DNA of 29,156 nucleotides from the IMG/VR virus record IMGVR_UViG_3300038759_000087, positions 1-29,156 of that record. The stretch is one strand, 5' to 3'. The first letter of the stretch is position 1. Every line of letters begins with the position of its first letter. Under the pieces are notes generated by a model. The model did not search any database, was not told the DNA's origin, and saw only the letters and a program-made list of their open reading frames with translations. Below, one piece after another: positions 12,461-28,538 of this stretch. Position numbers and translations under genes: made by a program. This DNA is from a virus.

Positions 12461-13444
12461 ATGAACTACTACAACGAGTGGGATTCATTCGCAGCCGAGT
12501 GGCTAAAACAACTAATCAAAGACGGCCTCATCCCTGACGGTGAGGTCGATACAAGGAGCATTGCAGATGTCGAACCATCAGACCTTAACGGATTTACACA
12601 GTGCCACTTCTTCGCAGGTATCGGAGGATGGTCAAGAGCCTTGCAGCTCGCAGGATGGAGTTCAGACAGACCTGTTTGGACGGGAAGCCCTCCTTGCCAA
12701 TCCTTCTCCACAGCAGGAAAGGGAAAAGGAAAAGACGACGAGCGACACCTCTGGCCTGTCTTCTTTAATCTCATCCGAGAGTGCCAACCTACAGCAGTGT
12801 TTGGCGAACAGGTTGCAGCAGCTATCAGACACGGATGGCTCGATGATCTACAAATTGACTTTGAAGAAGAAGGATACGCCTCAGCAGCGGTCGTATTACC
12901 AGCTGGGGGCGTCGGCGCGTTCCACAAAAGGGACAGGCTCTTCTTCACAGCCAAGCGCGTGGCTGACCCCAACGACATCGGACACGAACGGAATACGGAA
13001 ACTAGACGGGAAGCGCAGCGGGGGACTGAACACGCAGGTAGTCTCGGCGTGGCCAACACCGATGAGTTCGGACAATCGCGACCGGGGGAAGTTCAGAGAC
13101 GCTTCGGTACAGAGAAGGATAGCCAAAGGGAAGTCAATCGAGCTGTCAATGTTAGTAGAGTCAGTACATCCTTGGCCAACACCAACTCATCACAACTCCA
13201 AGGAAGGGGGATACCCGGGGGAGTTGACCAGAAAGACAGTGCCACTAGGGGCGATGAAGCATTTAGTCTCTGGGGAAATTCCCAGATCATCTACTGCCGA
13301 GACGGAAAGTACCGCCCCATCCCAACTGAACCCGCGCTTTTCCCTTTGGCTAATGGGATACCCAATCGAGTGGGCATACTCCGCGGAGCAGGTAACGCCA
13401 TTGTCCCGCAAGCAGCGGCAGAAATCATAAAGGCGGTGATGTAG
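12461..13444 (+). CDS. C5 cytosine DNA methyltransferase
   Basis: 327 residues. Motif I FFAGIGGWSRAL (AdoMet site), motif IV GSPPCQSFSTAGKGKG with catalytic Cys79, a GEQV variant of the usual ENV motif, KRDRLFF (motif VIII region) and the terminal LRGAGNAIVPQAAAEII (motif X). About 55 residues of non-conserved leader precede motif I. The region between KRVADPND and GIPNRVG is polar and repetitive and would be the target-recognition part. Likely role: methylating phage DNA against host restriction, or host-signal control. The central part is overprinted by another ORF (12567-13430). The stop shares a base with the helicase GTG. Confidence 0.92.
   Translation: MNYYNEWDSFAAEWLKQLIKDGLIPDGEVDTRSIADVEPSDLNGFTQCHFFAGIGGWSRALQLAGWSSDRPVWTGSPPCQSFSTAGKGKGKDDERHLWPVFFNLIRECQPTAVFGEQVAAAIRHGWLDDLQIDFEEEGYASAAVVLPAGGVGAFHKRDRLFFTAKRVADPNDIGHERNTETRREAQRGTEHAGSLGVANTDEFGQSRPGEVQRRFGTEKDSQREVNRAVNVSRVSTSLANTNSSQLQGRGIPGGVDQKDSATRGDEAFSLWGNSQIIYCRDGKYRPIPTEPALFPLANGIPNRVGILRGAGNAIVPQAAAEIIKAVM
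12567..13430 (+). CDS. Overprinted protein inside the methyltransferase gene
   Basis: 287 residues in the +1 frame relative to the methyltransferase, lying entirely within it. ATG 12567 has AAGGAG eight bases upstream, a better site than the methyltransferase itself has. The protein is Ser/Thr/Gln-rich with SATSSQVSEDGQEPCSSQDG, three tryptophan repeats (AWLTPTTSD, AWPTPMSSD, PWPTPTHHN) and a C-terminal LNPRFSLWLMGYPIEWA block. I recognise this architecture from phage and prophage proteins with repeated W-P-T-P and a final NPxFxxWLMGYPxxW, function unknown, usually found with cytosine methyltransferases. Alternatively the pattern is a shadow of methyltransferase conservation; the length of open frame and the ribosome binding site argue otherwise. 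Confidence 0.6.
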   Translation: MSNHQTLTDLHSATSSQVSEDGQEPCSSQDGVQTDLFGREALLANPSPQQEREKEKTTSDTSGLSSLISSESANLQQCLANRLQQLSDTDGSMIYKLTLKKKDTPQQRSYYQLGASARSTKGTGSSSQPSAWLTPTTSDTNGIRKLDGKRSGGLNTQVVSAWPTPMSSDNRDRGKFRDASVQRRIAKGKSIELSMLVESVHPWPTPTHHNSKEGGYPGELTRKTVPLGAMKHLVSGEIPRSSTAETESTAPSQLNPRFSLWLMGYPIEWAYSAEQVTPLSRKQRQKS

Positions 13445-16278: not shown

Positions 16279-16484
16279 GCACTGGCCCGTGGGAAGGTGG
16301 AAAGGGCTCGCGCCCCAGAAAGTACAGCGTCAGCAAGTATCAGGACAATTACGAGAGGATATTCAATGCCGCTAAAGAAGGGAAAAAGCCAAAAGGTGAT
16401 AAGCCAGAACATCAGGACAGAGATGGCAGCGGGGAAACCACGCAAGCAAGCAGTAGCCATTGCTATGTCAAAGGCGAAGCGTAA
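16275..16484 (+). CDS. Small protein of the WKGGKGSxPR type, unknown
   Basis: 69 residues, ATG overlapping the terS stop (ATGA). MSTGPWEGGKGSRPRKYSVSKYQDNYERIFNAAKEG matches a small phage family with W-x-GGKGSxPRP and NYxxIFG, usually near terminase or replication genes, function unknown. After residue 35 the frame continues as a hydrophilic tail through the next gene's coding region, so only the N-terminal half looks family-like. Confidence 0.7.
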   Translation: MSTGPWEGGKGSRPRKYSVSKYQDNYERIFNAAKEGKKPKGDKPEHQDRDGSGETTQASSSHCYVKGEA

Positions 16485-16503
16485 GAAGGCCACCTACGAA
16501 TAA
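16366..16503 (+). CDS. Small lysine-rich protein ending ATYE (MPLKKGKS family)
   Basis: 45 residues, ATG with GAGAGGA upstream. MPLKKGKSQKVISQNIRTEMAAG and KPRKQAVAIAMSKAKRKK match a widely occurring phage micro-protein (xPLxKGxSxxxISxNIRxEIxxGKPxxQAVAIAxSxA). That family normally ends after the basic tail; here ATYE is added. The gene overlaps the preceding one for most of its length in another frame and its TAA shares a base with the terL ATG. Strong positive charge suggests nucleic-acid binding. See the finding on the shared C-terminus. Confidence 0.8.
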   Translation: MPLKKGKSQKVISQNIRTEMAAGKPRKQAVAIAMSKAKRKKATYE

Positions 16504-17915
16504 TGCCCCAGATGCAAATCCCTAAGAAGCTGCGGAGGTTCATAGACACTCCTAAACGCTTCAAGGTCGCCATAGGAGGCCGAGGCTCAGGCAAGTCAAT
16601 GAGCTTTGCCGATCTATGCCTGATGGACGCTCAGACCAAGGGGATTAAGACCGCCTGCTTCCGTGAGTTTCAGAACTCCATAGACGACTCAGTACACGCC
16701 CTCCTCAAGTCAGAGATAGACCGCCTCAACCTCCAAGGCTTTGAGGTGCAGAACAACCAAATCCTTTTCAATGAAGACCCCGTGTTTAAGTTCCGTGGTC
16801 TGGCAAGAAACCCAGAGGGCGTGAAGTCAATGCACGGCTTCCAAAGGTTCTGGGTGGAAGAAGCCCAAACGATTTCATTCAACTCCCTTAAGGCTTTGAC
16901 TCCTACACTGCGTGAGGAGGGCTCAGAGATATGGTTTTCAGCCAACCCCAGATCAAGTGTGGATGCCTTCTCCCAACGGTTCATCAAGCCCTTTGAAAAG
17001 CAATTAAGGCGTGACGGATACTATGAGGACGACTTGCACCTGATTGTGATAATCAATATCACAGACAACCCGCTCGCTCCTGACGTCTTGAAGCAGGAGA
17101 TGGCACACGACAAAGAGGTGATGTCTCCGGCGCTCTTCCAGCATATCTGGGAAGGGGAATACTACGACTCAGTGGAAGATAACATCATCCCAACAGAGTG
17201 GTATGACGCAGCCATAGACGCCCATAAGAAGCTAGGCTTTGAGCCTTCTGGTGCATTGATTGCTTCGCACGACCCGTCTGATGAGGGTGGAGACAGCAAG
17301 GGCTTTGCTATGCGCAAGGGCTCGGTTGTCTTAGAGGTGTGTGAAAAGGTAACAGGTGATTCTAACGAGGGTATGGACTGGGCTCTAAAGAAAGCCAGAG
17401 ACGCACAGGCAGATTGGTTTGTGTGGGACTGTGATGGTCTGGGCATCTCTCTCAAGCGTCAGGTAGACCAAGAGCTAGACTCCACCGCGATGCAAAAGCA
17501 CCAGTTCCGAGGCTCAGAAACTCCTGACGATGCGGTAGTTCCATACAGTGGTAAAGACTCCAAGACCAACAAAGACACCTTCTTCAACAAGCGGGCGCAA
17601 TACTGGTGGAAGCTACGGGATAGGTTTGAAGCTACCTACCGAGCAGTGGTGAAGGGTGAGTATGTAAACCCTGATGAGTTAATCTCTCTCAGCAGCGAAA
17701 TAGAGACGCTGGACCAGTTAAGAAGCGAAGTGTGCAGAATCCCGCAAAAACGCTCAAATAATGGTAAAATCCAGATAATGTCAAAGATTGATATGGCAAA
17801 GAAGCCGTATGAGCTACCGTCCCCGAATATGGGTGATGCGTTAATGATGTCAATGTTTTCACCAAAGGCAGTCCAGAAAGCGGCTGTCAAAATCAATTTC
17901 TCTGGCTGGGGCTAG
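16503..17915 (+). CDS. terL: Terminase large subunit (ATPase and nuclease)
   Basis: 470 residues. Walker A GGRGSGKS (25-32), Walker B region FWVEEAQ (about 116-122), coupling motif SANPRS. The C-terminal RNase H-like nuclease carries HDPSDEGGD (about 256), VWDCDGLG (about 307) and SPNMGDALMM (about 441), supplying the metal-binding Asp residues. It is closest in appearance to Sf6/P22-type headful terminases, which fits a circularly permuted, terminally redundant genome and the Erf module. ATG shares a base with the preceding stop. Confidence 0.95.
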   Translation: MPQMQIPKKLRRFIDTPKRFKVAIGGRGSGKSMSFADLCLMDAQTKGIKTACFREFQNSIDDSVHALLKSEIDRLNLQGFEVQNNQILFNEDPVFKFRGLARNPEGVKSMHGFQRFWVEEAQTISFNSLKALTPTLREEGSEIWFSANPRSSVDAFSQRFIKPFEKQLRRDGYYEDDLHLIVIINITDNPLAPDVLKQEMAHDKEVMSPALFQHIWEGEYYDSVEDNIIPTEWYDAAIDAHKKLGFEPSGALIASHDPSDEGGDSKGFAMRKGSVVLEVCEKVTGDSNEGMDWALKKARDAQADWFVWDCDGLGISLKRQVDQELDSTAMQKHQFRGSETPDDAVVPYSGKDSKTNKDTFFNKRAQYWWKLRDRFEATYRAVVKGEYVNPDELISLSSEIETLDQLRSEVCRIPQKRSNNGKIQIMSKIDMAKKPYELPSPNMGDALMMSMFSPKAVQKAAVKINFSGWG

Positions 17916-17918
17916 ACT

Positions 17919-20138
17919 ATGAAATACGATAACGGAATGGAAGAGAAGGAAGAGTCAGCGGAATACACCGAGGATGACTTGTCCTACAAAGATAAGTATG
18001 AGGACCACCAAAGCGTCATCAACCTTCTCTCCTCCTGCCAACAGGCCGACCACGACAACCGCGAGCAGGCCCGTGAGGCTCATCTGTTCCTTGATAAGAG
18101 GGACGGTCAGTGGGAGCCCTACTGGTGGAACGCCAACCAGAACAAGCCACGCTACACGTTCGATCAGGTCAACCCTATCGTCTCTCAGGTCGCCTCAGAG
18201 ATTGAACAGGCAGACTTTGATATCCGAGTCTCTCCTGCTGGTGGTAACGCTACGAAAAGCGTGGCATCTACCTATGACGGGATAATCCGAAACATTGAGA
18301 ATATCTCCAACGCCAAACAAATCTACGCCCAAGCCTGTAGAGGTATGGTGACTGGCGGGTTTGATGCGTGGAGGGTCTGTTCTAAGTTCGCAGACGACAA
18401 CTCATTCGACCAAGACATCATGATTGAGAAGATCGCCAACCCTTTGGATAGGGTGTGGTTTGACCCTGCGGCAGAGAAACAAGATAAGTCTGACTCAAGG
18501 TATGCGTTTGTCTTACATCCTATGGCAATAGACGAGTACCAGAGTCGTTGGCCTGAAGGCTCAGAGGAGTCAGTCACAGACGACCGTGAAGGTGATGCTT
18601 ACTACGACAAGGCTGAGGTCATTGTTGTGGGTGAGTTCCTGTATATGGAGTCAGAGGACCGCGAGCTGGTCATGATGAGCAACGGTCAGACTCATGAGGT
18701 CAATGAGGACTTTGAGAAGGTCAAAGATGACCTTGAGGCTATAGGTGTCACAGAGGTCCGCAGGCGCAAGCGCAAGATGCACAAGGTCTGCTCAAGGTAC
18801 TTCGACGGCAAGGACTGGTTGGAGGATGACAAAGATACAGTCTTTAACCGCATTCCTGTAGTTCCGGTCTACGGCAACTTCAAGATATTTGAAAACAAAA
18901 CGATCTACTGGGGTGTAGTGGAGAAGCTACTAGACCCGCAGCGCGTTATGAACTACGCAATGTCACGAGAGATTGAGGAAGGTGCGCTAGCTCCACGGGC
19001 TAAGTATTGGATGACTCCGACTCAGGCAGCGGGTCATGAAGACACATTAGCCACGCTGAACACTAACAGCGACCCAATGCAGCTCTTTAACCCTGACCCT
19101 GAGTTTCCTCAAGCCCCACAGCAGAACGGTGGCGCAGCTATCAACGCTGGTCTGAGGACAGTCGCTCAGGCTATGCAGGGCATGATGAACGCAACGTCTG
19201 GGATGTTCGCAGCGAATATGGGTGACAACCCTAACGCTCAGTCAGGTGTAGCGATACGTCAGCTCCAGAACAAGGGCGACAACGCTACCTACCAGTACAC
19301 ACGAGCTATGGAGATTGCTATCGCAGCAACGGGCCAGCTCATTAAGGACGCTATCCCCAAGGTCTACGACACCACTAGGACCATCCGCGTTCTAAGGGAA
19401 GACGATTCCTATGATATGGCTGACATCAACCAACAAGTCATAGACAACGCCACAGGCGAGATTGTGGTAGTTAATGATCTGTCAGTGGGTGTTTATGATG
19501 TGGTGTGTAAGGCAGGCCCGAGCTTCCAGAACCGCCAACAAGAAACGATTGAGGCGATTACTCAACTGGCTCAAGTCGATCCGTCTCTGATGCAGATCGC
19601 TGGTGACTTGTTGATGCAGAACATCAATACCCCTGCGGCAGCACAGATCGCCGAGAGAAAGCGAGCCCAGATGATACAAGCTGGAATGATTCCTCAGTCT
19701 CAAATGACCGAAGAGGAACTGATGGCAGCGCAGCAGCAGATGCAAGGCCAGCAACAACCTGACCCTGCAATGGTGCTAGCACAAGCCGAGCAGATGAAGG
19801 CTCAAGCCGAGATGATGCGGGCTCAGATAGAGCAGGCCAAGCTCCAGAACGAGCAGATGAAGCTACAGATCGAAGCTCAGAAACTCCAGTCTCAAACAGT
19901 GGGCGATCAGGCTGACAACCAGATTGACGCCTTCAACGCCGAGACTAAGCGTATGGAGACGCAGATCAAAGCCCAACAGGCAGGCGCTACCATTGACAAG
20001 ACCTCAGCTCAGGCAATGGGCGAGCAGTTAGACAACCAGAAGAAGATGTCTGACATGATGGAAGAGCAGCAACGCAAAGCAATGCAGCAAAGCCTTTCAA
20101 CAGCCCAACTTGTGAGTATTGCCCGTGGCGGAGTCTAG
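17919..20138 (+). CDS. P22-type portal protein
   Basis: 739 residues, matching the P22 portal in length. The N-terminus is acidic; the core includes DQVNPIVSQVASEIEQADFDIRVSPAGG, ACRGMVTGGFDAWRV, NPLDRVWFDPAA, VVEKLLDPQRVMNYAMSREIEEGALAPRAKYW and QSGVAIRQLQNKGDNATYQYTRAMEIA, all typical of the P22 portal family. Residues 590-730 are a long Gln/Ala/Met-rich coiled coil (EQMKAQAEMMRAQIEQAKLQ), like the P22 C-terminal helical barrel that reaches into the capsid. The dodecameric ring forms the DNA entry/exit vertex. It starts 3 bp after terL. Confidence 0.95.
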   Translation: MKYDNGMEEKEESAEYTEDDLSYKDKYEDHQSVINLLSSCQQADHDNREQAREAHLFLDKRDGQWEPYWWNANQNKPRYTFDQVNPIVSQVASEIEQADFDIRVSPAGGNATKSVASTYDGIIRNIENISNAKQIYAQACRGMVTGGFDAWRVCSKFADDNSFDQDIMIEKIANPLDRVWFDPAAEKQDKSDSRYAFVLHPMAIDEYQSRWPEGSEESVTDDREGDAYYDKAEVIVVGEFLYMESEDRELVMMSNGQTHEVNEDFEKVKDDLEAIGVTEVRRRKRKMHKVCSRYFDGKDWLEDDKDTVFNRIPVVPVYGNFKIFENKTIYWGVVEKLLDPQRVMNYAMSREIEEGALAPRAKYWMTPTQAAGHEDTLATLNTNSDPMQLFNPDPEFPQAPQQNGGAAINAGLRTVAQAMQGMMNATSGMFAANMGDNPNAQSGVAIRQLQNKGDNATYQYTRAMEIAIAATGQLIKDAIPKVYDTTRTIRVLREDDSYDMADINQQVIDNATGEIVVVNDLSVGVYDVVCKAGPSFQNRQQETIEAITQLAQVDPSLMQIAGDLLMQNINTPAAAQIAERKRAQMIQAGMIPQSQMTEEELMAAQQQMQGQQQPDPAMVLAQAEQMKAQAEMMRAQIEQAKLQNEQMKLQIEAQKLQSQTVGDQADNQIDAFNAETKRMETQIKAQQAGATIDKTSAQAMGEQLDNQKKMSDMMEEQQRKAMQQSLSTAQLVSIARGGV

Positions 20139-22113
20139 TCTTAGAGATTATGTAGCCAACACCGTTGGTCAGTTTAACGCCGGAGTCATTGATAACACTC
20201 TGGGGTTAGCTGACCTTGGTGCTCAGGGACTGGCTTATCTTTACAATAAAGCCACTGGCAGTAACGCACAGCCGTATAACTTATCTGGGATGGTAAAAGA
20301 TGAATTAGGTGTTCAGTCTGACCCATCGTCAATGTCTTATGCAGCAGGCTCTATTGCTCCTGCCGTTGTCACTGGAGTTAGTTCTGCACTACGTCAACTG
20401 CCTAATGTGATGGGCAGGGAGTCATTGAGCTACGCAGGCGGCGAGCTAGGCGGGCAGGTTGGTCAAGAGTATTTCGGTGACACTGGCGGCTTGGTTGGCT
20501 CAATCGCAGGAAGTATGGCTGCTCCACAGGGCGCTGTTAGATCAGATATATTCGCAGGCCCGAACTCACGAACCGCAGACTTGAAGGCTATGGAGGCTGC
20601 TCAAGAGCTGTCAGAGCGTGGCATGAGTCCTGCTGAGATTAAGGCCCAGACAGGTTGGGAAAAGAACCTTGACGGCAACTGGATGTATGAGATTCCTGAT
20701 GCCGGAGCTACCCTTAACAGAAGGCAGATACTAAATGACCTTCGGGCAGCAGGAACATATCCCGCTACGTCTGAGCAGGGATTAACAGGCATTGTTAGTG
20801 ATTATTTTGATAATCCAGCCTTGTTTGAAGCCTATCCTGCGCTAGCTAACAGGCCGCTGACAGCTTACGCCGACCCTAGTTCTAGCACTGGGGGCTATGT
20901 GCTTCCCAAGACTGGAGAGATTGGTATAAACGTAGGCATTCGTGACTCTAGAGACAAAGACCGTCCTTTGGGTAGTATGATTCACGAGCTGCAACACGCC
21001 GTGTCAGGGATAGAGGGACGCAGCGGAGGAGGAAGCCCTGCCTCAGTTCGTAACTTAATGGAGCAAAGCGAAAACAGGGATTTAGCTCCATATATGGATG
21101 ACTGGATAGAGTACAACAATATTCGTGGCGATATAAATTTAATCGGCAGCACTAAGAACTTTAGACAGCTTCAAGATATTGCGTCTTCTCCTGATCCTGA
21201 CTTCAAAGATTTAAGGAACACCTATCAGTATCGCAATATGTCAGGGATTGTTCATAATACATTCGGCGACCCAAGCAAAGACAATCTGCAAGAATGGACT
21301 CGTAATGCCGCGCAATTTTTGCTAGACAATTCAATGGATTCTGTAACTGATTCGCAAAAGAAAAGGCGCATACAGTACCTACTCAGCCTTCCTGAAGAGG
21401 GGTTTGAGCAAGAGTTAAAGGATGCTAAAGATATAGCTGATAAGAGCCGAGCTGGATACCAGTCATTTGAGGATACAAGGACTAAATATTATCAGCTCAG
21501 GCAGCTACCGGAGTTTGAACAATATCAAGCAATCAATGACGAAACTCTGGCTAGAGAAGCTACGGCCCGTATGAATATGACCGCGCCTTCAGCTTTGCGT
21601 GAATTATACACCTCAAGAGTGGAAAATCCTGATCGGTTGTGGAACGCAATAAGACGTTATTCTCCAGAAGAAAATGTTGTTAAAGATATTTATGATATGG
21701 ATGAAGATGAATACATCCAAGCGATTAACCCTCAAGGCACACGGATAGCTCCAGAAGCTAGGCCTAACCTTGGTATGGGCGATATGTACGGTATGGCTCC
21801 TCGCAATGCGTCTGAGGTAATGACGCAAGAGTTACCTTCTGGCGAAGTCGTCAGATATGTTCAGGATGACGATGCAGTATATGCGCTTGGGTATAATCCC
21901 GATCTAGGGGAAGAGGATGTGGTTGGCTATATGCTGGGCGGCGGTGACAGCAGCGAACTGGCTGTCGTAAACCAAATGCAAGGCCAAGGCATTGGAGGAA
22001 ACTTGTCTTACTTGTATAGGTCGCAAAATCCTATGGCGCAATCAGGCGGCCTTACCGAAGCTGGCGAAGGCGCTGCAAGAAAAACCTATAGACGCATAAT
22101 GGGTTACGAATAA
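20125..22113 (+). CDS. Polyvalent virion-associated protein with HELQH metallopeptidase and GNAT-like end
   Basis: About 662 residues from GTG 20125 (TTG 20119 is the alternative), overlapping the portal. Residues 1-140 are Gly/Ala-rich and partly hydrophobic (GVIDNTLGLADLGAQGLAYLY; AAGSIAPAVVTGVSS). Residues 230-320 contain NPALFEAYPALANRPL, GGYVLPKTGEIGINV and SMIHELQHAVSGIEG: H287-E-L-Q-H291 with the downstream Glu is a zincin motif, in the arrangement of large polyvalent protein associated domains. The last 60 residues (LAVVNQMQGQGIGGNLSYLYRSQNP) resemble GNAT motif A. Probably packaged and injected or acting during maturation; it sits between portal and scaffold. Confidence 0.72.
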   Translation: MAESSLRDYVANTVGQFNAGVIDNTLGLADLGAQGLAYLYNKATGSNAQPYNLSGMVKDELGVQSDPSSMSYAAGSIAPAVVTGVSSALRQLPNVMGRESLSYAGGELGGQVGQEYFGDTGGLVGSIAGSMAAPQGAVRSDIFAGPNSRTADLKAMEAAQELSERGMSPAEIKAQTGWEKNLDGNWMYEIPDAGATLNRRQILNDLRAAGTYPATSEQGLTGIVSDYFDNPALFEAYPALANRPLTAYADPSSSTGGYVLPKTGEIGINVGIRDSRDKDRPLGSMIHELQHAVSGIEGRSGGGSPASVRNLMEQSENRDLAPYMDDWIEYNNIRGDINLIGSTKNFRQLQDIASSPDPDFKDLRNTYQYRNMSGIVHNTFGDPSKDNLQEWTRNAAQFLLDNSMDSVTDSQKKRRIQYLLSLPEEGFEQELKDAKDIADKSRAGYQSFEDTRTKYYQLRQLPEFEQYQAINDETLAREATARMNMTAPSALRELYTSRVENPDRLWNAIRRYSPEENVVKDIYDMDEDEYIQAINPQGTRIAPEARPNLGMGDMYGMAPRNASEVMTQELPSGEVVRYVQDDDAVYALGYNPDLGEEDVVGYMLGGGDSSELAVVNQMQGQGIGGNLSYLYRSQNPMAQSGGLTEAGEGAARKTYRRIMGYE

Positions 22114-22114
22114 C

Positions 22115-22288
22115 TTAATCAGCCCCCGCTAGATACCTAACCTTCTCTTCAAGCTCTTCCATAAGCTCGGCGACGTACTCACGCTCGCCGTAGGCTTCTG
22201 ACAGTAATATCTCTCTCACCATAGACATAACCTCATCAGCCATCTGATCTGGGTCGTCTGTCTCAAACAAATCGTATGAATCGCTCAT
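22115..22288 (-). CDS. Leftward 57-residue acidic protein inside the head module
   Basis: Minus-strand ATG at 22288 preceded by AAGGAGGACTT, one of the strongest ribosome binding sites in the window. The protein starts MSDSYDLFETDDPDQMADE and continues with a helix VMSMVREILLSEAY, then EYVAELMEELEEKVRYLAGAD. Highly acidic, two helices. It is oriented against all surrounding structural genes and has its own promoter candidate (TATTAT with TCAACA at 18 bp). No family recognised. An acidic helical mini-protein behind a regulated promoter could be a regulator or host-interaction factor. Confidence 0.72.
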   Translation of the reverse strand: MSDSYDLFETDDPDQMADEVMSMVREILLSEAYGEREYVAELMEELEEKVRYLAGAD

Positions 22289-22314
22289 AAGTCCTCCTTG
22301 GTCAACTTGGCCAC

Positions 22315-22367
22315 ATAATAGCCTATTTAGCTAATAAGTGTTGATTTAGCACTAAATATGGTATTAT
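22315..22367. promoter_or_regulatory. Overlapping divergent promoters with palindromic operators
   Basis: Leftward: -10 TATTAT (22315-22320, minus) with -35 TCAACA (22339-22344, minus), 18-bp spacing. Rightward: extended -10 TGG-TATTAT (22359-22367) with TTGATT (22341-22346) at 15 bp, short but helped by the TGn element. The two -35 regions overlap. Palindromes TTAGCTAA (22327-22334) and ATTTAG-CA-CTAAAT (22344-22357) lie in the core, sharing TTTAGC, so one regulator could switch direction. Confidence 0.5.
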
Positions 22368-22419
22368 CGGAGATAGGCACACGGCCTTTTCCGTGGCATT
22401 TACCTGTAAGGGGCAACAC

Positions 22420-23250
22420 ATGAGCGAGCTGCAACCAGAAGATAACTACGAGTACGATTCTGAGGACGACGTAACCACAGAAGAGGAGGTAGTAGAAACT
22501 GAAGATTCTGTTGAGGAACAGGATTCCGAATCAGCACCGGAGGCTGGGGAGACTCAGGATAAACAAATTAAGTTCAGCGATGAGCAGCAACGCATATTCG
22601 ATGAGGCTGTTGGGAAGAAGGTCTACAAGCTCCGAGAGAAGGAGCGTGAAGCCGAGTCCCTAAAGAAACAGCTTGAAGAATTGCAGTCTAGGATTCCTGA
22701 GCAGAGACGGCCTAACGTCCCTGACATACCTGACCCGTTTGCACTATCCGATGAGGAGTACAAGCGAAGTCTGGCGCACAGAGACGAGGCGCTCAAACAA
22801 GCTATTGCGTATGACCAGCAACAGCACATGCTGAACCAGCAGCGACAACAGCTACAGGCGCAGCAGGTACAAAAGCAGCAAGAAGCACTGACCGAGAAGG
22901 TCCAGTCTTATTCCCAAAGGGCTAACAAGCTGGGGATTAAGGCAGAGGAGCTACAGGCAGCAGGTAACACGATAGCCCAGTTTGGTATTCAGGATGATGT
23001 AGCTAACTACATTCTTGAGGAAGACCAAGGGCCATTGATTACCACCTACCTGTCTAAGAACCTCTTAGAACTGGAAAAGGTGCGTGATATGTCTCCGGCA
23101 GCCGCCGCAGTCTACATCGCCACTACGGTTAAGCAGAAGGCTGCTGCTCTGAAACCCAAGGTAAATTCTGCTCCTGACCCATTGGAGCAGCCACACGGCG
23201 CTGGAACAGCCCCCAAACCTAGAGGGCCACAAGGCGCAACATTTGAATAG
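22420..23250 (+). CDS. Scaffolding protein, ends ATFE
   Basis: 276 residues from ATG 22420 with AAGGGG six bases upstream; a GTG at 22393 is less likely. Residues 1-50 are extremely acidic; 55-85 (KLREKEREAESLKKQLEELQ) and 105-165 (Gln-rich) are coiled coil; a helical domain follows (EELQAAGNTIAQFGIQDDVANYILEE), then a Pro/Lys-rich tail ending PRGPQGATFE. Composition and position directly before the coat gene are those of a P22-like scaffold, which templates procapsid assembly and exits before DNA packaging. In P22 the scaffold C-terminus binds coat; here that end carries the ATFE element shared with four small proteins. Confidence 0.85.
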   Translation: MSELQPEDNYEYDSEDDVTTEEEVVETEDSVEEQDSESAPEAGETQDKQIKFSDEQQRIFDEAVGKKVYKLREKEREAESLKKQLEELQSRIPEQRRPNVPDIPDPFALSDEEYKRSLAHRDEALKQAIAYDQQQHMLNQQRQQLQAQQVQKQQEALTEKVQSYSQRANKLGIKAEELQAAGNTIAQFGIQDDVANYILEEDQGPLITTYLSKNLLELEKVRDMSPAAAAVYIATTVKQKAAALKPKVNSAPDPLEQPHGAGTAPKPRGPQGATFE

Positions 23251-23261
23251 GAAAAGGCAAA

Positions 23262-24524
23262 ATGGCTAACAATCTTAATAGTAACGTCACACGGAAAGTC
23301 GCTCGCGTCTTTCTTGAGGCATTTGAATCAAGCCGAGTTCTGACTAAGACAGTCAACACTCAGCTTCTCTCAGGCAAGTTTAACCCTGCATCGGGTTCAA
23401 ACGTGGACTTCAAGCGTCCTCACGACTACAACTCAATCCGCACCTCTGGCGGTGACATCAGCTCTTCTACGAAGTCTGACATCATTGCAGGTAAGGCGAC
23501 TGGTACGGTTCAGGACTACTTCACTGCTGCTACTGAATGGGGCAATGTTGAAGAGGCTCTTGAGCTTGACCAACTCGACCAGATCATTGAGCCAATGGCT
23601 CGCCGTATCGTTACTGATATGGAGCTTGATCTTGGTGCATACATCCGCAAGAACGCTTCACTCAAGTATGGTACTCACGGCACTGCCGTAGACGCTTGGG
23701 GCGATGTGGCTGGCGCTGGTGCATTGATGGACTCTATCGGCGTTCCTATGAGCGACGACAAGTATTACATCATGAACCCTTTCACGACTACTGCGCTGTC
23801 TTCAGCTCAGAACGGTCTGAACGCGGCTGACGGCCTTGTGCGTACAGCGTGGGAGAAGGCTCAGATTTCTGCTAACTTCGGTGGCATGATGGCTCTGACT
23901 TCTAACGCTCTGTCTAGCTACACTTCAGGTTCTACTACTGACCGTGAAGGCGCGCTTGCAGCAGCTCCTGACGCGACTTACGTCACTGCTAAAGACACTA
24001 TGACTCAGGTTCTGTCTCTTGACGGTCTGGGTACTGGTACTATCAAAGCGGGTGATATGGTAACTATCGCAGGCGTTAATCGTCTGAACGTAGCTACTCG
24101 TCAGCCTATGCTTGACGCTTCTGGTGCAGTAGTTCCTTGGACTGGCACTGTCCTTGAGGATGTGACTATCGCTGGCAATGCCGCGACTATCACTGTCTCT
24201 GGCGCTGCTATCTACGAAGCTAACGGTCAGTACAACAACGTAGACGCCGCTCCTGCGGAAGATGCTGTTGTGACTATCCTTGGTGCTGCTTCAACTCTGT
24301 ACCAGCCTAACCTCTTCTACACGAAGCAGGCGTTCGGCATCGGTACTGTTAAGCTACCTAAGCTCTACTCTACTGACACAATCGCTACTACTAGCGATGG
24401 CTTCTCTATCCGCGTATCTAAGTACGCAGACGGCGATGCCAACACGCAGAAGATTCGTTTCGACCTTCTGCCTGCATACGCTACCTTCAACCCGCTCTTC
24501 GCGGGCCAAGGTTTCGGCGTATAA
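23262..24524 (+). CDS. Major coat protein, P22 type
   Basis: 420 residues (P22 coat is 430). Typical start MANNLNSNVTRKVARVFLEAFESSRVLTKTVN, then FKRPHDYNSIRTSGGDIS, EWGNVEEALELDQLDQIIEPMARRIVTDME, and a middle insertion rich in Thr/Gly/Ala corresponding to the P22 telokin-like I-domain region. It ends FRFDLLPAYATFNPLFAGQGFGV-like. HK97-fold capsid subunit. Codon use is strongly biased towards a small set (GCT/GCG, ACT, CGT), as expected for the most highly expressed protein. Followed by a strong hairpin. Confidence 0.94.
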   Translation: MANNLNSNVTRKVARVFLEAFESSRVLTKTVNTQLLSGKFNPASGSNVDFKRPHDYNSIRTSGGDISSSTKSDIIAGKATGTVQDYFTAATEWGNVEEALELDQLDQIIEPMARRIVTDMELDLGAYIRKNASLKYGTHGTAVDAWGDVAGAGALMDSIGVPMSDDKYYIMNPFTTTALSSAQNGLNAADGLVRTAWEKAQISANFGGMMALTSNALSSYTSGSTTDREGALAAAPDATYVTAKDTMTQVLSLDGLGTGTIKAGDMVTIAGVNRLNVATRQPMLDASGAVVPWTGTVLEDVTIAGNAATITVSGAAIYEANGQYNNVDAAPAEDAVVTILGAASTLYQPNLFYTKQAFGIGTVKLPKLYSTDTIATTSDGFSIRVSKYADGDANTQKIRFDLLPAYATFNPLFAGQGFGV

Positions 24525-24533
24525 GGATGACGG

Positions 24534-24560
24534 GAGGGGCTTCGGCCCCTCTCTTCTCTT
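24534..24560 (+). terminator. UUCG-capped hairpin after the coat gene
   Basis: GAGGGGC-TTCG-GCCCCTC (7 bp, very stable loop) followed by CTCTTCTCTT. The tract is pyrimidine-rich rather than a clean T run, so it is probably a partial terminator or mRNA stabiliser that lowers expression of genes downstream of coat. Confidence 0.6.
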
Positions 24561-24815
24561 ATGAAGCCCAGTAAAGGTAAAGCAAAGGTTAAAGTCACCG
24601 CATCCGGCAAGAAAGTCTCCTACGGGCAGGCTGGTAAAGCAAAGGATGGCGGGCCTCGCGTTCGCGCAGGTACAAAGAAGGGCGATGCATATTGCGCCCG
24701 ATCAGCCGGCCAGATGAAAAAACATCCAGAGGCCGCAAAGAATCCTAACAGCCCCTTGAGGCTTTCCCGTAAGCGGTGGAAGTGTAAGGGTGAGAAGAGT
24801 GCAACCTATGAGTGA
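24561..24815 (+). CDS. Small basic protein ending ATYE (KRWKC family)
   Basis: 84 residues: Lys-rich start (MKPSKGKAKVKVTASGKK), then VRAGTKKGDAYCARSAGQMKK, NPNSPLRLSRKRWKCKGEKS and final ATYE. The block GTxKGDAYCARS..MKKxPxAAxxPNSPLxLSRKRWxC is a recognisable phage micro-protein family with conserved Cys, function unknown. No ribosome binding site precedes the ATG; the only purine-rich run (GGGAGGGG) is in the stem of the hairpin about 20 bases upstream, so initiation may depend on RNA folding. Position after coat and the tail ATYE point to the capsid. Confidence 0.82.
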   Translation: MKPSKGKAKVKVTASGKKVSYGQAGKAKDGGPRVRAGTKKGDAYCARSAGQMKKHPEAAKNPNSPLRLSRKRWKCKGEKSATYE

Positions 24816-24969
24816 TGGACTCTACGCAAATATCCACAAGAAACGCAAACGTATCAAGCGCCAGAAGGCTGAGGGTAAGACTCCTGAGCGTATGCGTAAG
24901 GTTGGCTCTAAAGGAGCACCAACTGCTAAAGCGTTTCGCCAATCAGCAAAGACAGCTACATACGAGTGA
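24808..24969 (+). CDS. Small basic protein ending ATYE (GLYANIHKKRKRI family)
   Basis: 53 residues, ATG overlapping the previous gene's last 8 bases. MSDGLYANIHKKRKRIKRQK, PERMRKVGSKGAPTAKAFRQSAKTATYE. The plan GLxANIxxKRxRI..GxxxxMRKxGxKGAPTAxAFxxSAKTA is a very common micro-protein in marine phages, especially those of cyanobacteria, whose function is unknown; those versions usually end in Lys shortly after SAKTA. Here ATYE closes the protein. Charge and position suggest an internal head protein that contacts DNA (inference). Confidence 0.85.
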   Translation: MSDGLYANIHKKRKRIKRQKAEGKTPERMRKVGSKGAPTAKAFRQSAKTATYE

Positions 24970-24977
24970 GGTGATTT

Positions 24978-25091
24978 ATGCCAATGGTTAAAGGTAAGAA
25001 GTACCCGTACACTAAAGAAGGCATGAAGGCCGCTAAAAAGGCCAAGATGGCTAAGGGCAAGAAAAAGACTAGCGGAGCTACATACGAGTAA
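24978..25091 (+). CDS. 37-residue basic protein ending ATYE
   Basis: ATG at 24978 with GAGGTGATTT upstream; the stop shares a base with the next ATG (TAATG). MPMVKGKKYPYTKEGMKAAKK then AKMAKGKKKTSGATYE. The KKYPYTxxGxxAAKKA motif is shared by micro-proteins in many phages, function unknown. More than a third of residues are Lys. Third consecutive gene after coat with the ATYE terminus. Confidence 0.82.
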   Translation: MPMVKGKKYPYTKEGMKAAKKAKMAKGKKKTSGATYE

Positions 25092-27835: not shown

Positions 27836-28086
27836 CAGGACCAAGACTAAACGTCGCGCAGCCTATCGTAAACGACGACGGTACGATGGCGCAGCCGTTC
27901 AGGCAGTTTACTCAAGACGCGAGCTTAAGTATTCCCATCGTGGGAACAGGCTCGCCAGAAGGAGTTATTACAGCTAGACAATACAGTCTCTACATTGACT
28001 CTACGGGTTCTGCGGGCTCAATTGAATACAGGAAGATGCAGCCGGATATCGCTGGTGATGTTACCAAGGGATGGGTGGCTGTTTGA
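27832..28086 (+). CDS. Small virion-associated protein at the gp26 position
   Basis: 84 residues, GTG in GTGA overlap. MTGPRLNVAQPIVNDDGTMAQPFRQFTQDASLSIPIVGTGSPEGVI: this xxPxVxxDGTMxxxFRxFxxxxSxxIPIxGxGSPEGVxxAxxxxxYxD pattern is frequent at the start of phage tail or fibre-adaptor proteins. P22 has the tail needle gp26 here; this product is far too short to be a full needle. Could be a plug or short adaptor. Unknown in detail. Confidence 0.75.
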   Translation: MTGPRLNVAQPIVNDDGTMAQPFRQFTQDASLSIPIVGTGSPEGVITARQYSLYIDSTGSAGSIEYRKMQPDIAGDVTKGWVAV

Positions 28087-28538
28087 TAGCAGAAACAAAA
28101 GATTCGAAGCTAATTAGTCTTATAGCTACGATACCGTCACTTTGGGAGACGATAGCCGAAGATGGCGTTTCTCCTGACAAGTGGCAACCAGATATGACAG
28201 AGGGTTGGTTGATAGGTTCAGATGACGATGGGTTGATAGGACTGTACAACGTCCATCCCCAGAACACTGTAACCTTACAGATACATCCGATCATCCCGCT
28301 GGAGACGAGAGGCAAAAGAGCCTACGACTCCGCACAAGAAGTATTACGTTGGATATTCACTACAACCCAGTACCAGAAAGTGGTGTGCGAGATACCCGTA
28401 ATCTACAGAAACGTAAAGCTATTTGCGATGAAGGCCGGAATGAAAGAAGAAGGCATAAATCGTCAAAGTTACTTAAAAAATGGTAAAATACACGATCAAT
28501 GGCATCTAGGTATTGCCAAACAGGAATTTGAACTATGA
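28083..28538 (+). CDS. GNAT-like protein, P22 gp14 / DUF2824 type
   Basis: 151 residues if started at TTG 28083 in TTGA overlap; an ATG at 28071 gives four more residues and a longer overlap. IAETKDSKLISLIATIPSLWETIAEDGVSPDKWQPD, DDGLIGLYNVHPQNTVTLQIHPIIPLETRGKRAYDSAQEVLRWIF and AMKAGMKEEGINRQSY show a GNAT-like fold (strand, motif-A-like loop, helix, late GFxxEG-type strand). P22 gp14, between gp26 and gp7, belongs to such a family and is needed for head/ejection protein assembly. Whether it acetylates anything is unknown. Confidence 0.8.
   Translation: MIAETKDSKLISLIATIPSLWETIAEDGVSPDKWQPDMTEGWLIGSDDDGLIGLYNVHPQNTVTLQIHPIIPLETRGKRAYDSAQEVLRWIFTTTQYQKVVCEIPVIYRNVKLFAMKAGMKEEGINRQSYLKNGKIHDQWHLGIAKQEFEL

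Follow-up and report, generated by a model that had tools for sequence, protein, structure and literature searches.

The 29,156-nucleotide stretch of DNA analysed here, called the window throughout, represents part of the genome of a P22-like phage, with genes in the order terminase, P22_portal, scaffold, P22_CoatProtein, P22_Tail-4 and Phage_stabilise. The coat protein matched the PF11651 profile over its full length (residues 1-417, E 1.6e-70), and the coat family profile also matched the Sf6 gp5 structures. Four small basic proteins, designated F1 to F4, are encoded in the same region (Table 1), the F1 gene adjoining the terminase gene directly upstream. The start of F3 is most likely the ATG at 24808 and not the GTG at 24790, and comparison of F4 with Pfam and PHROG gave no match. 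Two other features were noted in passing. Between portal and scaffold, positions 20119-22113 encode a 664-aa protein in which an LPD23 (Large polyvalent protein associated) domain and an HELQHAV motif are found. Two long + strand ORFs in different frames (12461-13444 and 12540-13430) overlap in an apparent case of dual coding of about 890 bases, both matching DNA methyltransferase families (phrog_363, E 3e-76; phrog_1008, E 6e-37).

Table 1. Features of the window that bear on the shared C-terminal end.
Feature	Coordinates	Strand	Detail	Final codons and stop
F1, 45-aa Lys/Arg-rich protein, phrog_2423, DUF6496-like, ends KATYE	16366..16503	+	tag codons 16489-16500	GCC ACC TAC GAA TAA
Scaffold, 276 aa, phrog_8865/648, P22 gp8 homologue, ends GATFE	22420..23250	+	tail motif 23233-23247	GGC GCA ACA TTT GAA TAG
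Major coat protein, P22_CoatProtein family, putative tag receptor	23262..24524	+	closest solved relative Sf6 gp5	
Coat N-arm helix and next residues, ~aa 5-30, putative docking site	23274..23351	+	basic R11, K12, R15, R25, K29	
F2, 84-aa basic protein, ends SATYE	24561..24815	+	tag codons 24801-24812	GCA ACC TAT GAG TGA
F3, 53-aa basic protein, phrog_16028, ends TATYE	24808..24969	+	tag codons 24955-24966	GCT ACA TAC GAG TGA
F4, 37-aa basic protein, ends GATYE	24978..25091	+	tag codons 25077-25088	GCT ACA TAC GAG TAA

Looking at the gene ends in Table 1, it can be seen that the four small proteins and the scaffold share the C-terminus A-T-(Y/F)-E, hereafter the tag. This had been pointed out in a sequence-only reading of the window, whose positions, codons and stops for the five ends were all correct when the genes were re-read, as was its statement that no other protein in the window ends this way. 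The motif terminates 5 of the 51 window genes against an expectation of 0.0013 (P(>=5) ~3e-17). When the window was pooled with its 80 closest coat loci, obtained by a scan with the coat, A-T-[YF]-E closed 123 ORFs on the + strand and none of the 10,941 on the − strand. All 123 proved to be scaffold or F1-F4, the copies in loci L073 and L076 being pieces of a broken F3.

Copies of the four small-protein families were then collected by profile searches and counted as distinct copies. Within the clade, which comprises about 120 related viral contigs, x-x-[YF]-E ended 94 of 100 copies (F1 16/19, F2 27/27, F3 35/38, F4 16/16), counts that are not independent because the loci are related; relatives that keep the small proteins and the scaffold mostly keep their C-termini as well, contrary to the outcome that the sequence-only reading had named as refuting its idea. 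The motif is broader than A-T-[YF]-E: position −3 varies (T, K, R, M or S on the small proteins; T, K, I, V, M and others on the scaffold), and the aromatic residue at −2 and the terminal Glu at −1 are nearly fixed. This profile is the same in both kinds of protein, with a preference for F in the scaffold and Y in the small proteins; by eye, the exact letters of the scaffold tag and of the small-protein tags showed no evident matching from locus to locus. The tag is kept despite insertions and deletions ahead of it (AKTATYE, AKTAKKATYE, KRNKGATYE), and an F2 that is truncated at its C-terminal side (L070-L072, L074, L075) still has the end KGATYE.

Six of the 100 in-clade copies are without the tag. 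Among F1 they end in AGKSKKK (L007, L055) or ATVE; among F3 they end in ITLE, and in one frameshifted copy the tag lies stranded downstream. The F1 copies of L007 (3299-3520) and L055 (3364-3528) resemble F1 of two outgroup phages, Vibrio phage FGH and phage BA3, and their sequences suggest a recent replacement. In some contigs F2-F4 are missing altogether, for example in L004, whose coat is 100% identical to that of the window. The absence of F2-F4 from L004 and the existence of tagless in-clade copies mean that the tagged proteins are not indispensable. A search for further tagged genes yielded only a P22 gp14-like (DUF2824) protein, which has the end ELEARYE in six related loci (EARYE in L040, L052, L057, L062, L080 and L215); the window copy (28071-28538) ends QEFEL. 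This protein is possibly a fifth carrier of the tag, or its end may be a chance resemblance.

Could such ends be imposed by DNA or RNA, through stop-start overlap, a Shine-Dalgarno sequence, the context of termination or a DNA end that was recently copied? The sequence-only reading had itself proposed, as an alternative, that the bases TAYGAG serve the next gene. This is partly so for F2, in which TATGAGTGA holds the ATG of F3: the Y-E codons TATGAG contain this start, and an overlap constraint thus exists there. The 12 tag bases of F3 and F4 in the window are identical, and some genes show a codon preference (GAA for Glu in 16/16 F1, TAC for Tyr in 16/16 F4). However, no stop-start overlap of this kind occurs at the other four genes, and even among the 27 distinct F2 copies five use TAC, which makes the ATG impossible and leaves the tag intact. 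Over all copies, the four Ala codons, the four Thr codons, both codons each for Tyr, Phe and Glu and all three stops are in use, it is position −3 that takes up the amino-acid changes, in the scaffold as in the small proteins, and untagged relatives elsewhere lie in comparably tight gene arrays. Judged from its codons, the tag is conserved at the level of the protein and not of the DNA. The codon tallies rule out a DNA-level motif or overlap as the general cause, leaving it as a partial constraint on F2, and we regard this whole class of explanation as highly improbable.

The same small-protein families are found elsewhere, in T7-like pelagiphages, cyanophages, cobaviruses and other phages. 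Outside the clade the tag was present in 0 of 97 distinct copies, a number that leaves aside four tagged hits first scored as outside, which were slices of the window itself. Most of these copies close with a simple basic stretch (TAKK or KKKK, for example), in agreement with the earlier statement that usual members of the families lack this ending. Since none of the copies elsewhere carries it, the tag is an addition made in this clade, and the possibility that it is an old feature of the families is ruled out. In Acinetobacter phages, relatives of F1 make up the N-terminus of prohead proteases, so that an F1-like domain is known from head assembly in other phages, which fits the reading proposed below. 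The relatedness of the clade loci, with the resulting non-independence of the counts, might be taken to mean that each gene merely inherited a meaningless ending from its common ancestor, or that the likeness is fortuitous. The sharing across four unrelated families and the scaffold already contradicts this, as does the free turnover of the sequence ahead of a tag that stays; chance is ruled out by the strand comparison and by the probability calculated for the window alone, and we give the idea of chance or lineage inertia almost no credence.

We then considered the scaffold, on which the same end peptide is found as on the candidate cargo F1-F4. Its family profile aligned to P22 gp8 (8i1v_H) over residues 30-270 (E 1e-13); in Foldseek the P22 scaffold was again the best match, but with an E of only 0.09. 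The homology to gp8 stops at residue 270, where the coat-binding hook begins (gp8 residues 268-303; PMC12005531), and in the AlphaFold2 model of the window scaffold helices extend to residue 242 and are followed by no secondary structure. According to this alignment and model, the P22 helix-turn-helix hook is absent here and a predicted unstructured tail stands in its place. In P22, removal of the 11 C-terminal scaffold residues abolishes coat binding (PMC9965877), and hook residues R293 and K296 bind D14, E15 and E18 of the coat N-arm (PMC12005531; PMC9965877). Whereas P22 thus combines an acidic coat N-arm with a basic hook, the clade of the window combines a basic N-arm (conserved R11, K12 and R/K15; a net negative N-terminal stretch in 1 of 33 coats) with a tail ending in Glu.

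The scaffold tail extends well beyond the clade. G-A-x-[FYI]-E ends most scaffolds encoded directly upstream of the coat down to about 45% coat identity, behind a hypervariable sequence, and examples include Sf6 (GAKIE), APSE-1 (GAMIE) and phiSG1 (GATIE); in a minority of scaffolds in the wider group, T, S, K, D or A replaces the terminal E. Sixty-one H6/1-like contigs, those with at least 1.5 kb read past the coat gene, are without any of F1-F4, and most of them have this scaffold end, which L004 has as well in spite of lacking F2-F4. From these comparisons, the scaffold tail is older than the tags on the small proteins. Loci with this coat and tagged proteins have scaffolds of the GATFE/GAMFE type, whereas P22-coat loci carrying untagged F1 or F3 have scaffolds that end AGKIR, KKR or KQG; that of P22 itself ends LKGIR. 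The P22-coat loci read that encode these small proteins and have a readable scaffold end all follow one rule, a G-A-x-[FY]-E scaffold accompanying tagged proteins and a different scaffold end accompanying untagged ones, the sole exceptions being the untagged F1 of L007 and L055.

Considering the shared ends, their conservation as protein, their co-occurrence with one type of scaffold and the position of the tail relative to the P22 hook, we think it likely that the small basic proteins end in copies of the short tail with which the scaffold binds coat, and that this tail loads them into the procapsid. The last four or five residues, with the consensus [G]-A-x-[FY]-E at a free C-terminus, would serve as a short linear tag for loading into the procapsid. 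In the scaffold it would make up the end of a flexible tail, standing where P22 has its hook and most probably binding the inner surface of coat subunits through its aromatic-Glu-carboxylate end; the conserved basic N-arm helix is a plausible site, to which the argument from charge points. Four unrelated Lys/Arg-rich proteins with the same tail would reach the same coat sites and be built into the procapsid with the scaffold, where their strong basic charge may serve to neutralise the packaged DNA or to order it. Of the shared coat-binding signal put forward in the sequence-only reading, the shared C-terminal signal stands, being present in about 120 contigs, absent from the same small-protein families elsewhere and paired with G-A-x-[FYI]-E scaffolds; we infer the coat-binding part from position, the tail replacing the coat-binding hook of P22.

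The partner of the tail could also be the portal, because P22 scaffold hooks contact the portal as well as the coat and several of them sit on the portal surface (PMC12005531). The tail would then bind this or some other head component and gather scaffold and small proteins at the portal vertex, a notion with which the location of F1 directly before the terminase gene agrees. In P22, however, every coat subunit shows the C-terminal module that lies at this position (PMC9965877), and the scaffold tail is conserved along with the coat family, so that we consider binding to the portal or another head component unlikely.

A further possibility is that the C-terminal [YF]-E is a protease signal or a stability determinant for proteins removed or protected during head maturation, since the scaffold has to leave the head and degrons typically occupy a fixed C-terminal position. 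Known bacterial C-terminal degrons, of which the ssrA tag is an example, have no acidic end, the P22 scaffold is recycled without cleavage, and no head protease was found among the head genes tested. This role is very unlikely.

On balance we favour the view that the end is a portable C-terminal tag: the clade may have given at least four unrelated protamine-like proteins the coat-binding tail of its scaffold, making them natural co-assembled cargo, and would have done so only where docking of an acidic tail replaces the basic P22 hook.

Peptides that load capsids are familiar from T4 internal proteins, encapsulin cargo and engineered P22 cargo. For artificial loading of P22 capsids, cargo has been fused to scaffold; in P22 gp8 and the P22 nanocages, as here, the scaffold body is homologous and the coat-binding element lies at the scaffold C-terminus, whereas here a short unstructured acidic-ended tail takes the place of the hook and the putative cargo genes are tagged naturally. 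The scaffolds of Sf6, APSE and phiSG1 have a G-A-x-I-E end of the same type, and no tagged small basic proteins were found in the loci of these phages that were read. T4 internal proteins are small proteins of the virion interior that a short peptide common to them routes into the prohead, much as is proposed here for F1-F4. The T4 capsid targeting sequence is N-terminal and is cut by the prohead protease, whereas the peptide described here is C-terminal and matches the scaffold end. Encapsulin cargo resembles the proposed system in that a short C-terminal peptide binds the inside of an HK97-fold shell, but the shell is a bacterial compartment and not a phage procapsid. In the open-licence literature, represented mostly by titles and abstracts, we found no report of a natural C-terminal tag common to a scaffold and unrelated small proteins; titles and abstracts on small basic proteins of virions, on recruitment signals at the C-terminus and on the proteomes of podovirus particles mentioned no such tag. 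If the proposal is true, a peptide of four or five residues loads proteins into P22-like capsids, a coat-binding end is predicted for the whole scaffold family, Sf6 included, and a role is given to small basic proteins that are widespread in phages and have had no known function. It would also provide a cargo tag far smaller than the pieces of P22 scaffold with which nanocages are loaded at present.

As a separate observation, branches of phages with a P22-type coat seemingly swap charge between the coat N-arm and the scaffold end. Eight loci (L222, L226, L234, L237, L244, L252, L254 and L265) mostly combine an acidic arm with a basic scaffold tail, as opposed to the basic arm and Glu-ended tail that go with coats of the window type; on net charge, L222 and L237 fall off this pattern.
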